From a bacterium (GTDB taxonomy: Bacteria > Bacteroidota > Ignavibacteria > SZUA-365): DNA of 64,000 bases. The stretch covers positions 1 to 64,000 of the forward strand of contig JAHLLD010000004.1 of assembly GCA_020444325.1 (NCBI GenBank), in the 5' to 3' direction. Both the position numbers and the translations under genes were made by a program. Positions within the stretch are counted from its first letter, which is position 1, and each line of letters begins with the position of its first letter. The notes under the pieces were generated by a model. It ran no database searches. It saw only the letters and a program-made list of their open reading frames with translations, and was not told the DNA's origin. Shown one piece after another: positions 35,648-41,027 of the stretch.

Positions 35648-37072
35648 TTACTGCACGACTATCCCGTGTGATTTGATCTGGCCGGACTGCAAAACACTTA
35701 CCTGGTAATACCCCGGACGCAGTGCGGGCAGCGTGAGTTGTATCCGCTGGCGCTGCCCGCGAAACTCAAGCTGTCGCTGCAGCACGGTTTGTCCCAGCAG
35801 GTTGCGCAGCAGGATGGTACCTGTGCCGGAAGCGGGATTCTTCAGATCAAGGGAGAGCTGTCGTGTTCCGTTGGGGAGAGGATTCGGAAAGAGATCAAAA
35901 TCCACGGCCGAGCTGACGGCGTGAGAGGGAGTCTGAATGCCTGTAACCCAGTGGGGATTGTGGAGAAAGGGATCACCGAGCAATGTACTGCGCGTGCTGA
36001 GGGGAGGAATGGAGTCTCCGGGTCCGCCACCGCGCCGGAGCTTGACCTCGAGCAGCGCGAGTCCGTAACACGCATCTTTGTTTTCTTCCATGTAGCTGCG
36101 CGCTTCCATCCCGATGTTGAAGAGCGCCATGCCGAATGCGAGTCCCGACGACACGATTGCTCCCACGGCTCCTCCATCCTTCACGCGCAGCATGTTTTCG
36201 GGAACGGACTGCGCGCTGTCGAGATCGAAGCGCTGACTGCAGGCAACGGTGTAGAGGAAGAAGGGTTGCGTGCCAAGCTCCAACGTCGGGATATCCGTGG
36301 CATCGACGAGATGCAAGGCGGACCAGTGGTCCGGCGCCCCGTGTCCCGCATACAGCAGTGTGCCGATACCATGGGAGATATGATGCGCGAGCGAGTCGAT
36401 AATGGTTTCCGCATTCTCTGTGTTGGCCGCCAGTGCGACAGAACGATCGCGATCGGGATCGAAGGAGTTTTGCCAGGTATGCACCATCGACAGGAAAGGA
36501 TCCCCCTCTTCGTAGTCCGCAAGTCCGAGCTGATCGAGCGAGCCCTGGCCCGGGGACAGCTTCTCGTAGGCAATGGTCTTCGCGACCATCGTCCGCACCT
36601 CCTCGATGGAAGCCGCGGGAAGCCGTCCTACGGCCAGCTCAGGGAGGGCGTCATCATCGTACAGATCGTCCGCCAGCATGTCATCAATCGCCACGGTATC
36701 CGTGAACAGCGTGCTGTGCGCCGGATGCGGCGGGAGCATGTATGTCGGTACCCACTCAACATCGCCGACGAGCAGCAATGCCACCGGCGCGGGCGGCGTC
36801 CATGAATGCATGGCATACGTGGTGAACTCCCGTATCGAAGTCAGCGTATCCGCCGCGGGAAACGCCTGGAGGATAGCTCCGATCGTGGCCACCTCGTACC
36901 TGATTCCCTGCGTGCCGCGATACTCCACGAGTGGCGCGACGTCCTGCGCGAACGCATCGGGTACAATAAGAATGCCATCGGCTGAAATGGAGGGATCGCG
37001 CAATCCGGTCTGCGCACTGGCTGCGCCCAAACTGGCGCAAAGCAGGAGGGAAACAACAATGATTCTGATCAT
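35648..37072 (-). CDS. Gingipain-family (C25) cysteine peptidase with T9SS sorting domain
   Basis: About 474 residues. A signal peptide (IRIIVVSLLLCASLGAASA) is followed by a caspase-like C25 domain: LLLVGDVEWVPTYMLPP, ALPELAVGRLPA, catalytic His244 in YAGHGAPDHW and catalytic Cys278 in YTVACSQ. The His-Cys spacing of 34 is close to the 33 of RgpB gingipain. There is no long propeptide: the mature domain starts almost at the signal peptide. The C-terminal 85 residues (FPNPLPNGTRQLS ... GYYQVSVLQSG) are a sorting domain. Expected on the cell surface; specificity not assignable. Start at 37072 or 37105. Confidence 0.9.
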   Translation of the reverse strand: MIRIIVVSLLLCASLGAASAQTGLRDPSISADGILIVPDAFAQDVAPLVEYRGTQGIRYEVATIGAILQAFPAADTLTSIREFTTYAMHSWTPPAPVALLLVGDVEWVPTYMLPPHPAHSTLFTDTVAIDDMLADDLYDDDALPELAVGRLPAASIEEVRTMVAKTIAYEKLSPGQGSLDQLGLADYEEGDPFLSMVHTWQNSFDPDRDRSVALAANTENAETIIDSLAHHISHGIGTLLYAGHGAPDHWSALHLVDATDIPTLELGTQPFFLYTVACSQRFDLDSAQSVPENMLRVKDGGAVGAIVSSGLAFGMALFNIGMEARSYMEENKDACYGLALLEVKLRRGGGPGDSIPPLSTRSTLLGDPFLHNPHWVTGIQTPSHAVSSAVDFDLFPNPLPNGTRQLSLDLKNPASGTGTILLRNLLGQTVLQRQLEFRGQRQRIQLTLPALRPGYYQVSVLQSGQIKSHGIVVQ

Positions 37073-37155
37073 ACGACCTGCAGGAATGATGAATATACCC
37101 GGCATACAGTATGACCTGAGCCTAAGAAAAACAATTCCAAAGCAGGCCCATCATT

Positions 37156-38829
37156 CTATTTCATCAGCATCATTTTTCTTGCCGTGTGCGTATCGTCCGC
37201 AGTCAGCCTGTGGAAGTAGACACCTGACGGCAATCCCCCGGCATTGAACTGCAGGGAATGTGATCCCGGGGTCAGGACTTTGCCATCGAGCAGGCGACGG
37301 ACTTCCCTGCCATACAGGTCAGTAACCACGAGCGTGACACGCCGTGACGTGGGCAGGGTAAACTCAATCGTCGTTGATGGATTGAAGGGGTTGGGATAAT
37401 TCTGCTGAAGCGCGATGCTCCGGGGCAGGGAAGTGATATCCTGACTGGAGAGGGAAAGGTCTTGCACGCGGTAGATTCCGCTGCGATACGAATCGACCTC
37501 CTGCTCAGTCCTGTGTGCGACCCAGAGCACGTCGTCAGCGTCGAGCGTCCAATCCCCAAGCGCTCCCCAGAACTCCGCGGGTGAGAACAGCAGCCGCATG
37601 TGCGTTGCACTTGCCGTTGCGTTCGGAATGATGAGCAGGGAGTCACTTCCCACGGGATGCGCGATGTACTTGATGTTGCCATCGCCTCCCTTATACGCTT
37701 TCCATTCCATGTAACCGGCAGTACCGGCTATGCTGCGAATGGTATCGAATATCCTCCCGTCATTCATTGGCGACCATGTGATGTCCTCTCCCGCTACCTG
37801 TCTCCAGAGAAGGACCATGCGTCCCTCAGCATCGGTGAGCAGATATCTGCGACGTTCTTCATTCCCTGCTGCCGTTGTATTGCTGCGTCGGACCTCGCCG
37901 TTGGCGGAGCAGGAGTACACGGTGATGGAGTCGAGCCGGTCGAACAATACGACGACCCTGTTATCCGTTGTCGGCTGCACGACAAGTTCCGGAGAAAGAT
38001 CCAGGTGGAAAGGGTATTCGAAGTAGATACCACGTTCGAGAACGGCATCTCCACCACCGGGCGTGGTGATTGCCGCGAGGCGCAGACCGACACTGTCCAT
38101 CGCGTGCGCATGGCCCGCCGTTCTGTAGAGGACCATCACCGTACCGTCAGTGCGCTGAACGAGGCGGGGGTTATACCCTGGTCCGAGAGTGAAAGATTGC
38201 AGGAAGGAGGAATTCTCTGAGAACCGCGCCACGCGGATTTCCGCTTCATAATAACGGTGCGGTATTTCAGCTGGATCCAGTACCGTGATCGCCTCCCACA
38301 CCAGCCAGAATCCACCACTCTTCAGCTGAAGGACATCAGGATGTCGTGCGTCCTGAAATTCTCTTATCGTTTCGAGTACATCGTTCCATGTATGCTGCAG
38401 CGCCATATTCCCAATGCCGTAACCCGAATGGACGCTCGCTCCGCCGATCTCCCATGGCAGCGTCGCCAGGAGTATGTCCCGATCAAAGGAGCCTCCGATG
38501 CCAAAATCAAACCCACCCTTTGCAAAGTAATTCATGCCGGATTCGAGGGGACCGATGGAATGCAGGGTGTGCGACTGCAGCGTTCCTGCGCCGTCGATCA
38601 GATGCGCATTGAGATCCTTGAACTCATATTTGACGTCAAACATGGGAGGCGGCGCTCGGTGGATGCTGTCCGTCCCGGTAATGCACACCATGCCGCCCGG
38701 CAGTGCGTGCAGTGACATGGCACTGAGCCGGTTGCCGGAGTATCGCTCCGGCAACCACCAGTGATCTACCGTCTGTGCACAGACGTCGAAAGTCGAAATA
38801 AATATCAGGGAAAGGATCAGGACTCTCAT
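37156..38829 (-). CDS. Secreted beta-propeller-like protein with T9SS sorting domain
   Basis: A 557-residue protein. A signal peptide (VLILSLIFISTFDVCAQ) is followed by a beta-rich body with repeated Trp/Tyr-containing strands (LWRQVAGEDITWSP, GDWTLDADDVLWVAH), suggesting a propeller without Asp boxes. The end has QNYPNPFNPSTTIEFTLPTS, LYGREVRRLLDG and PSGVYFHRL. It lies 83 bases upstream of the C25 peptidase gene on the same strand, so the two may be co-expressed. Confidence 0.83.
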   Translation of the reverse strand: MRVLILSLIFISTFDVCAQTVDHWWLPERYSGNRLSAMSLHALPGGMVCITGTDSIHRAPPPMFDVKYEFKDLNAHLIDGAGTLQSHTLHSIGPLESGMNYFAKGGFDFGIGGSFDRDILLATLPWEIGGASVHSGYGIGNMALQHTWNDVLETIREFQDARHPDVLQLKSGGFWLVWEAITVLDPAEIPHRYYEAEIRVARFSENSSFLQSFTLGPGYNPRLVQRTDGTVMVLYRTAGHAHAMDSVGLRLAAITTPGGGDAVLERGIYFEYPFHLDLSPELVVQPTTDNRVVVLFDRLDSITVYSCSANGEVRRSNTTAAGNEERRRYLLTDAEGRMVLLWRQVAGEDITWSPMNDGRIFDTIRSIAGTAGYMEWKAYKGGDGNIKYIAHPVGSDSLLIIPNATASATHMRLLFSPAEFWGALGDWTLDADDVLWVAHRTEQEVDSYRSGIYRVQDLSLSSQDITSLPRSIALQQNYPNPFNPSTTIEFTLPTSRRVTLVVTDLYGREVRRLLDGKVLTPGSHSLQFNAGGLPSGVYFHRLTADDTHTARKMMLMK

Positions 38830-38923
38830 GGCGTCCCCCCGGACAGTGCGGATGAAGCAGTGGTGTACGCATCCATAATACCCGAATGGGGGGAGAGTGT
38901 CAAGATGAGGCTACGCTGCTAAC

Positions 38924-40243
38924 TTAACGCTTCACCATGATCGGCTGCACGGACTGTTCACCGCCATCTGTCGTCACGGCGAGAAGATAGAGTCCGTTGC
39001 TCAGATCACCGATATCGATCTGCTCCTGCCAGGTGCCTTCTCCCCGCTGATCGGTGACGGACATCTCACGCACACGTTCGCCTTTGACGTCATACATGGA
39101 CACGGCCACGCGCCGCGGTTCGGGCAGCGTAAATTCCACGGTAGCCTTTGCCTGCGTGATGGGATTCGGGTAGATGTTCGCGGCGAGAGAGCGAGGAGCT
39201 GTCACACCGTTCTCGGTGTTCTCCTCGAGCTGTCGCTGTTGTTCTTCGACTGCACGTTGGACGCGGTGGGGAAGCTTCTCGATGAATCCGGGGTCAGGTT
39301 TGAACCAGTAGATGTAGTAATAATCACCGGATTCCGTAGCGACGGCGGGGTTCTCTGTGGGCACCTTGATGGGGATGAGCGTTCTCATGAAGCTGGCTTT
39401 TGCACCGTGGATATTCTGCTCGGCGGCACCTGAAGCACTGCTGGTCGTCGAATATGTACGTCCACGCGAATTGGTCACTAATACAGGGGCATACAGATCT
39501 TTCTTTTTTTCCTGCTTCTCTTCATCGGCATCCTTTCGATCAAAGGACAACGTGTAGCTGACCACACCGTTAGACTTCTCCTCCATCTCCGTACTCATCC
39601 CGTCATAGAATTCTTCGAGCACGCCACCATCTTCGGTCAGTGTGATTCCGATGTTCTGAAGCTCGGCCGGATCGAGTTCGTATATCGAATACCCCTGTAT
39701 GCGAAGCTTCGTCCACTTTGCATACAGATCATTTCTGAGCTTTCTTCGGGCTTTGTTTTCGGGTGAGTTCGGATGCTCCGCCTTCCGCCTCTCCAAAGCG
39801 CGCTTCATTGCTAGCGACATTTCATCAGTAGTGCGCTGCATATCCGGGGACATCCCGGTCGAGTTACTGGAGGTATCCTTTTTCGTTTTTAAGGAGTCGT
39901 CGTCCGTCACACTGGAAGTTGACGTATGCTGCTCCGGGGCCTGCTGCAGCTGCGCTGCCGGTGCGTCCGGGTTGTTCTGAGACTGAGTGGATTCCTGTGT
40001 GAGTTGATTTGTGTTTTCTACCTGTGCGGTGTTGAGATTGAAAATGATCAGTAATGCTGCGACTAAAACCATAACTCCTCCGACTACAATAATTGAGCGA
40101 TGAGCGATTGGCATCCGTTTTCTGCGATACGGATGAGCCGTGGAAAGGAGATAGTCCTGAACAGTCGATGTCGACATGCGGGGCTCCGTGTTGCGGGCTT
40201 CCTCCAGCATGGAGTCAAGAGTTCTGTGTTTCGACGTACTCAT
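38924..40243 (-). CDS. Membrane-anchored anti-sigma-like protein ending in a T9SS sorting domain
   Basis: A 439-residue protein whose start overlaps the stop of the ECF sigma gene (ATGA), the classic position of an anti-sigma factor. It has a cytoplasmic N-terminus of about 48 residues, one membrane helix (about 49-69, SIIVVGGVMVLVAALLIIF) and a long extracytoplasmic part with a Gln/Thr/Ser-rich linker, a charged helix and a beta domain. The last 80 residues (NIYPNPITQAKATVEFTLPEP, YDVKGERVREM, LSNGLYLLAVTTDGG) are a T9SS-type sorting domain. There is no cleavable signal peptide and no zinc-binding HxxxCxxC motif. The anti-sigma role is inference from position and topology. Confidence 0.82.
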   Translation of the reverse strand: MSTSKHRTLDSMLEEARNTEPRMSTSTVQDYLLSTAHPYRRKRMPIAHRSIIVVGGVMVLVAALLIIFNLNTAQVENTNQLTQESTQSQNNPDAPAAQLQQAPEQHTSTSSVTDDDSLKTKKDTSSNSTGMSPDMQRTTDEMSLAMKRALERRKAEHPNSPENKARRKLRNDLYAKWTKLRIQGYSIYELDPAELQNIGITLTEDGGVLEEFYDGMSTEMEEKSNGVVSYTLSFDRKDADEEKQEKKKDLYAPVLVTNSRGRTYSTTSSASGAAEQNIHGAKASFMRTLIPIKVPTENPAVATESGDYYYIYWFKPDPGFIEKLPHRVQRAVEEQQRQLEENTENGVTAPRSLAANIYPNPITQAKATVEFTLPEPRRVAVSMYDVKGERVREMSVTDQRGEGTWQEQIDIGDLSNGLYLLAVTTDGGEQSVQPIMVKR

Positions 40244-40827
40244 TGTTCGACCTCGATTCTTTCCTTTGCCGGCTGCGCATTTCCGGTCTGGCTGGAATCC
40301 TCGTGTTCAGGTACTCCGAGGAGCAGCGCGAGCTGCTTCCTGGCGCGGACGAGACGGGATTTGACACCGGACATTGATCCACCTTGCATTGTGCGAATCT
40401 CCTTGAGACTGAGTCCCGACAATTCATAGAGCACAAGCGTTTCACGCAGTTTTGGCGGCAACTTTGCAATGGCAGCATACAGCGCTTCCATGTCCGCCGA
40501 GAGTTCGATCGACTCGGCCGTCTCAAACCGGAGTTCTTCATGCTTTCTCTCGAAAGGCAGATGCAGTGTTCTGCGCTTTGCCATGAGCCAGTGCAGCCGT
40601 TTCGCAATCGTAATCAGATAGAAGCGGAAGGACGATTGGTCGCGAACAGTGTCGAATGCCTGGTAGGCACGCAAAAGTGTTTCGCCAATCAGATCGCCTG
40701 CATCGTCCTGATCGCGTGTCATGCCGCGGACATAGCGCTCAAAGGCCGGATAGTGCTCATCCAGCAGCGAGAGAAATGCGCTCTGCCTTGCTGCGTCTTC
40801 CTGTGACGGCGGTGCGGTCGAATTCAT
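40240..40827 (-). CDS. ECF-type RNA polymerase sigma factor
   Basis: A 195-residue sigma70-family protein with region 2 (YPAFERYVRGMTRDQDDAGDLIGETLLRAYQAFD, DNA melting and -10 recognition) and region 4 (LPPKLRETLVLYELSGLSLKEIRTMQGGSMSGVKSRLVRARKQL, helix-turn-helix for -35). Regions 1 and 3 are absent, as in ECF sigmas. It is translationally coupled to the membrane protein at 38924, probably its regulator. An 18-residue Pro/Glu/Lys-rich tail follows region 4. Confidence 0.93.
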   Translation of the reverse strand: MNSTAPPSQEDAARQSAFLSLLDEHYPAFERYVRGMTRDQDDAGDLIGETLLRAYQAFDTVRDQSSFRFYLITIAKRLHWLMAKRRTLHLPFERKHEELRFETAESIELSADMEALYAAIAKLPPKLRETLVLYELSGLSLKEIRTMQGGSMSGVKSRLVRARKQLALLLGVPEHEDSSQTGNAQPAKERIEVEQ

Positions 40828-41027
40828 CCGGTTCTGCGTGGTCCCCCAGCTGGGTGATTAAGGTGGATCCGGTATCCCGTCTCCATGTAGTAGAGGGAGA
40901 AACAGGAAAAAAGTCGCATGCAAGGTACAGATAATGTGAACAAGCGGCCCGGAGGGGGCCGCCTGCGCAGGTGACGACGGATACAGATGCATGCGAGGGA
41001 GGGGGAAATAACAACGAGGAATGAACA

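Follow-up and report, generated by a model that had tools for sequence, protein, structure and literature searches.

An ECF sigma factor paired with an inner-membrane protein that ends in a T9SS sorting domain: a candidate trans-envelope anti-sigma factor in Ignavibacteria

We analyzed a stretch of 64,000 nucleotides from an Ignavibacteria genome (assembly GCA_020444325.1, contig JAHLLD010000004.1), henceforth referred to as the window, with a focus on two overlapping genes. The coordinates of this pair, of its parts and of the two promoters described below all refer to the reverse strand. The first gene of the pair (40240-40827) encodes an ECF sigma factor of 195 aa with regions 2 and 4 (Pfam Sigma70_r2, 7e-12; Sigma70_r4_2, 1e-11); in NCBIfam the protein has general ECF matches only. 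In a profile search, it was the best ECF of its subfamily in its own genome (E = 1.7e-73). The second gene (38924-40243), in the anti-sigma position, encodes a 439-aa single-pass membrane protein with a T9SS C-terminal sorting domain (CTD) at its end, as judged from Pfam, TIGR04183, hydropathy and an AlphaFold model. This protein is henceforth referred to as the partner. The sigma stop codon and the partner start codon share an ATGA at 40240-40243, and both reading frames and their overlap are as the first-pass annotation had described them.

The partner starts with a cytoplasmic head (residues 1-45; 40109-40243) with modeled helices at residues 9-18 and 25-35. It is the presumed sigma-binding domain, based on the model and on homology to the heads of the barrel-ended partners described below. 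Residues 1-50 had no match to an anti-sigma family in Pfam, and the head carries its own conserved pattern, LDxxLxxARxxxP. A membrane helix follows (residues 46-72; 40028-40108; hydropathy peak at residues 50-68), with its positive side placed toward the cytoplasm by hydropathy, the AlphaFold model and the charge bias of the family; its cytoplasmic flank is strongly positive (PYRRKRMPIAHR). The S/T/Q-rich periplasmic tether (residues 73-132; 39848-40027) is predicted to be disordered (pLDDT <50 at residues 75-132) and is the least conserved region. It leads into periplasmic helices and an alpha/beta region (residues 133-353; 39185-39847), recognized from the model and from a family motif, L[IV]P[IV].V...W[YF].P..[EF]...LP.R, that precedes the tail; W313 and L190 are invariant in alignment A5. 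The protein ends in a T9SS type-A CTD (residues 354-439; 38927-39184; YPNP ... YDVKGERV ... NGLYLLAVTTDGGEQSVQPIMVKR), assigned from PF18962, TIGR04183 and the model.

The AlphaFold model of the partner, built with 16 sequences, has moderate confidence overall (mean pLDDT 68). It places helices at residues 133-179, alpha/beta structure up to about residue 345 and seven strands at residues 354-437 (pLDDT about 80-92); the published CTD fold likewise has seven strands (PMC11285876). A long periplasmic region had been claimed for this protein, and it is indeed present, but it is not one uniform stretch: it divides into the disordered tether (75-132), a helical segment and, up to about residue 345, a conserved alpha/beta segment. 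A fold search with the whole model against the PDB returned general Ig-like matches only. The sequence of the tail weakly matched a Por-secretion CTD chain (8glj_D, E = 0.11).

The usual view of T9SS sorting domains is that they mark proteins for export from the cell. The tail of the partner scores 45.3 bits for Por_Secre_tail (PF18962; residues 357-431, cut-off 27, E = 1.1e-11) and 36.3 bits for TIGR04183 (cut-off 23, E = 4e-9), which bears out the earlier claim of a complete sorting domain on an inner-membrane protein with one helix (residues 46-72). It ranks seventh among the 150 CTD matches scored in the whole genome and is thus not degenerate by profile score. The genome (4.6 Mb) has at least 150 T9SS CTD matches. 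Ordinary T9SS type-A cargo was considered as an identity for the partner because the profile scores exceed the cut-offs, and was rejected because the protein has a 45-residue charged head and not the anatomy of a signal peptide. The same layout recurs across the family. Among 102 CTD-type partners, the helix starts at median residue 53, the net charge is +2.8 before the helix and -0.5 after it, and the charge before the helix exceeds that after it in 91 proteins. Since a charged head of about 50 residues precedes the helix and the charge is positive-inside, both in the window and in the family, the partner fits an N-in single-pass anchor and not the cleavable signal peptide that the first-pass annotation had raised as a counter-case, a verdict based on anatomy (45-residue head, positive flank).

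When 100 related genomes were searched with the whole protein, full-length orthologues of the partner turned up in four genomes of the window's own family. Elsewhere in the class, wherever the contig extended far enough, the best matches were membrane proteins whose genes directly follow an ECF gene. We built a profile of the sigma subfamily from 19 sigma factors (alignment A1) and found the subfamily in 87 of the 294 genomes of the class at E ≤ 1e-30, and in about 54 of the 294, representing ten GTDB-like families, at E < 1e-40. Genomes carry up to six copies, as paralogous pairs, and the subfamily is missing from 7 of the 12 members of the window's own family. A scan of named genomes detected it in Ignavibacteria and Kapaibacterium MAGs and in some Bacteroidia, among them the isolate Agaribacillus aureus BMA12.

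After removing duplicates and requiring a complete partner, we obtained 151 non-redundant pairs, in which the order sigma then partner is kept. The partner ends in a CTD in 103 of these pairs and lacks one in 48; PF18962 was matched by 81 of the 85 CTD-tailed partners that were scanned singly. The window's own genome has 15 other ECF genes, none of them with a CTD partner, and the genes next beyond the pair carry a CTD in only 2 of 79 cases. The presence of a CTD tail in the anti-sigma position is therefore more than chance (Fisher tests with 104 CTD partners, including one weak case, L108: 1e-7 against the other ECF genes, 2e-25 against the next genes). The first-pass annotation had allowed for the case that homologues in most genomes lack the tail; most of these pairs keep it.

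The partners vary in architecture. Some are longer (775-1096 aa; L215:5603-7966, L245:3174-6461 and the relatives L040, L042 and L043), with a repeated module of stalk plus CTD and with one or two internal CTD-like domains besides the terminal copy. In family f24, the CTD-tailed partner L237:5500-7551 contains a TonB C-terminal domain in its periplasmic part (PF03544, 6e-16), and L136 and L140 are CTD-tailed partners like it; three of the scanned partners matched PF03544. The partners of L167 and L170 (genomes G089 and G083) have ends that resemble a decayed CTD (..MERFIYVVR) and no profile match, and SprA is still present in these genomes.

The CTD is the most conserved region of the partner. 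Across five orthologues, and outside the close pair G006/G009, it has 49-68% identity, compared with 12-50% for the other regions (tether, 12-35%), and 36 of its 93 alignment columns are invariant. In the closest pair, dN/dS is lowest in the CTD (0.076), intermediate in the membrane helix and two periplasmic regions (0.14-0.30), and higher in the tether (0.37) and the head (0.74). The sigma-linked CTDs also form a subfamily of their own. With class profiles trained without the tested family, 98% of them were assigned to the sigma-linked class, compared with 6% of other CTDs, and the CTD of the window was assigned to this class with 87 against 62 bits. The terminal CTD has 22-23 residues from its GxY to the end of the protein, the same as in cargo. 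A lysine close to the C terminus is nearly invariant in type-A CTDs (PMC10994853). In the sigma-linked tails, this position is basic in 94 of 101 cases, usually as arginine; the window tail has a proline there, and neither the lysine nor another basic residue is present in the tails of the window and of two relatives (G001 and G008). The first-pass annotation had offered as its alternative that the domain was captured and plays no sorting role. Random capture is disfavored because all five family-level orthologues and most of the distant relatives keep the tail, because the sigma-linked CTDs are a distinct subfamily, and because constraint is strongest in this domain. The tail would instead be an old working part of a signaling device.

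We then compared the CTD-tailed partners with those that lack a CTD. About 30 of the 48 have an aromatic, alternating C-terminus that resembles an outer-membrane barrel, and most of the barrel-ended partners match no named Pfam family. The barrel fold was modeled in one relative (L214), and the other barrel labels are provisional because they derive from the look of the C-terminal sequence. The L214 model contains a two-helix head, a membrane helix and a disordered tether, as in the window, followed by an eight-strand barrel (pLDDT about 85-96) that matches NspA, OmpA and Ail. The heads of the two kinds are homologous, with one comparison giving an hhalign probability of 97.9% (P = 4e-13). CTD-tailed and barrel-ended members are intermixed in the sigma tree: 15 changes are needed for the CTD, although the strongly supported branches force only two. 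Given this intermixing and the homology of the heads, CTD and barrel appear to replace each other on a shared head and sigma factor. Other partners differ again. Those of L259, L260 and L158 belong to the subfamily and have neither a CTD nor a barrel-like end, and the non-CTD partners include proteins with WD40-like propeller, TPR and transglycosylase (SLT) domains (Pfam).

The same arrangement is known from the Dma anti-sigma factors (Dma2/Das2), in which an anti-sigma domain, a membrane helix, a disordered tether and a C-terminal barrel are encoded beside an ECF21 sigma gene (PMC13088901). Elsewhere in the window's own genome, five other ECF genes (L262, L265, L268, L269 and L271, on contigs C2, C5, C8, C1 and C12) are followed by genes for membrane proteins with other heads, two of them weakly zf-HC2-like, and with C-termini that resemble outer-membrane barrels. 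Judged by their sequences, these are probably Dma-like anti-sigma factors of other sigma groups.

We examined the DNA around the pair for promoters. An ECF-type promoter, TGCGACTTTT-N13-CTCTACT (40889-40918), lies 62 bp upstream of the start of the sigma gene, and its spacing is fixed in five genomes. The form TGCRACTTTT-N13-CTCTAYT is kept upstream of the five orthologous sigma genes in DNA that is otherwise unalignable, and each of the five genomes has a single copy without mismatch, which in every case stands at the pair. Looser searches added shared matches inside hydrogenase genes (G006/G009) and two lone weak matches in G006, and related -35/-10 elements stand before many other members of the subfamily. 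Since the only strict copy stands before the sigma gene itself, the sigma factor would autoregulate its own operon. The strict promoter was found before no T9SS gene in the five genomes; looser or weaker targets are possible.

On the other side of the pair, a sigma-70-like promoter (TTGACA-17-TATTAT; 38875-38903) separates it from the next gene. It has 11 of 12 consensus bases, although the whole scan for such promoters finds no more than are found in shuffled sequences. This promoter, and the lack of conservation of the next genes beside the pair, suggest that the pair is a two-gene unit. The next gene (37156-38829) encodes a CTD cargo protein of 557 aa, and the one after it (35648-37105, reverse strand) a C25-family (gingipain/PorU-like) protease of 485 aa with a weak CTD. 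For the C25 protein, a search of eight genomes yielded a single homologue, whose alignment covers residues 30-410 and leaves out the CTD. Both genes were considered as members of the unit and rejected because they have their own sigma-70-like promoter and adjoin the pair in no relative.

PorV serves as a CTD-binding component within the SprA pore (PMC10994853). Of the 294 genomes of the class, 291 have SprA, the window's among them, and the translocon would therefore be the most natural binding partner for the tail. Given that the tail of its clade lacks the near-invariant lysine, docking of the window's tail to the translocon is putative. The first-pass annotation had looked to co-occurrence with T9SS genes. 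The pairs do co-occur with the system, as SprA is present in all 22 other genomes with the sigma subfamily that were tested, but this does not discriminate, since SprA is near-universal in the class. A comparison of its 291 genomes with the approximately 54 that have the subfamily indicates that T9SS usually runs without it. The pair is unlikely to be a master regulator of T9SS because most genomes with T9SS lack it. The earlier proposal that the sigma factor controls T9SS genes thus fares poorly: the strict promoter occurs once per genome, at the pair, and most T9SS-bearing genomes are without the subfamily.

The reading that we favor, with moderate confidence, is that the pair consists of an ECF sigma factor and a trans-envelope anti-sigma factor that works as Dma does, with the CTD as its outer-membrane-facing module. 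From the gene order, the overlap, the topology and the homology of the heads, we infer that the two-helix cytoplasmic head binds and inhibits the sigma factor. The partner would cross the inner membrane once and span the periplasm with its disordered tether and folded stalk, presenting a type-A CTD in place of the Dma barrel. As long as the CTD is engaged at the outer membrane, where PorV/SprA or a related component that binds CTDs is its most likely contact, the head would keep hold of the sigma factor; if engagement is lost or the envelope is damaged, the sigma factor would be freed and would raise transcription of the operon that encodes it, along with that of a small number of targets. Points against this reading are that the head has no Pfam anti-sigma domain, that the tails of the window, G001 and G008 lack the lysine, and that some relatives have multiple or internal CTD copies, which a pure sorting signal does not need. 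We hold more tentatively that this class of anti-sigma factors lodges its CTD in PorV/SprA while anchored in the inner membrane, so that a single polypeptide would report translocon occupancy or the state of the outer membrane, and a T9SS signal and a barrel would be interchangeable outer anchors.

The main rival takes the CTD-like domain to be, by now, a periplasmic Ig-like sensor or dimerization domain of a normal single-pass anti-sigma factor with no tie to T9SS. We consider this possible, though doubtful. The separation of sigma-linked from cargo CTDs agrees with it, as do the inner-membrane anchor, which bars ordinary release, and the absence of the partner from most T9SS genomes; the missing lysine in the window clade and the internal CTD copies of several relatives favor it somewhat. 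However, 103 of 151 pairs keep a CTD at the very end of the partner, with a cargo-like distance to the last residue, most members retain a basic residue at the lysine position, and the module that replaces the CTD is a barrel, likewise an outer-membrane module.

A second rival, which follows the first-pass annotation, is a sensor of T9SS load: free translocons would hold the tail, and blocked ones would release the sigma factor to switch on porU, porV, sprA and other genes. CTDs are what the translocon naturally binds, and in Porphyromonas the ECF factor SigP does control T9SS genes (PMC7712824). Nevertheless, we judge this reading unlikely, given a strict promoter with one copy per genome, at the pair, in five of five genomes, a sigma subfamily that most T9SS-bearing genomes of the class lack, as do 7 of 12 members of the window's own family, and up to six paralogous pairs per genome, which speak for several signals. 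That the partner is ordinary T9SS cargo with a mispredicted start or an uncleaved leader, beside the sigma gene by chance, is very improbable, even in a genome with at least 150 CTD genes and with CTD cargo as the next two genes, in view of the ATGA overlap, the heads of about 50 residues that are conserved ahead of the helix in 102 proteins, the positive-inside charge, the sharing of the head with barrel-ended partners, and a linkage of 103 of 151 against a local background of about 3%.

If our reading of the pairs is right, then in about ten families of the class, as well as in some Bacteroidia, T9SS CTDs would be fixed parts of inner-membrane signaling proteins, and a second kind of outer module would be added to the recently described trans-envelope anti-sigma factors. 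The apparent exchange of CTD and barrel on the same head offers a direct route to how such factors sense the outer membrane. Should the tail bind the translocon, this would be, to our knowledge, the first one-protein link from T9SS state to transcription. Our searches of the open-licence literature turned up no anti-sigma factor that carries a T9SS CTD.

We compared the pair with known systems. The first-pass annotation had drawn an analogy to PorA and the PorXY-SigP circuit of Porphyromonas gingivalis, in which a CTD protein likewise influences an ECF sigma factor (PMC7712824). The analogy is loose: PorA is a surface protein that acts upstream of the sensor kinase PorY, by a two-component route, and it is described neither as an anti-sigma factor nor as the product of a gene paired with a sigma gene (PMC7712824). 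A PorA-like identity was rejected because PorA is a surface protein and works through PorY. PorU and PorZ, with their uncleaved CTDs, resemble the partner in that the CTD is kept and used by a protein working at the outer membrane; unlike the partner, they are secreted themselves and involve no sigma factor (PMC11285876). In the Phocaeicola vulgatus pair M0N98_03761/03760, the barrel-ended protein is part of an envelope stress response with a small regulon, in which the sigma gene is up 33-fold (PMC9308784). This pair and the B. fragilis pair cited in the same study have the trans-envelope anti-sigma layout in common with the pair of the window, but they are barrel-ended and without a CTD. The partner is most like Dma of Bacteroides, which is also found in Bacteroidota and is also a sigma-adjacent protein with an N-terminal anti-sigma head, one inner-membrane helix, a disordered tether and a distal outer-membrane module. 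It differs in that its distal module is a T9SS CTD, a seven-strand sandwich and not a beta-barrel, and in that a folded stalk precedes it; with no barrel in the partner, Dma in the strict sense is ruled out. The Dma family is nevertheless a closer precedent than PorA, and we rate the sigma-linked CTD partner as a variant of the trans-envelope anti-sigma factor with a new outer module.
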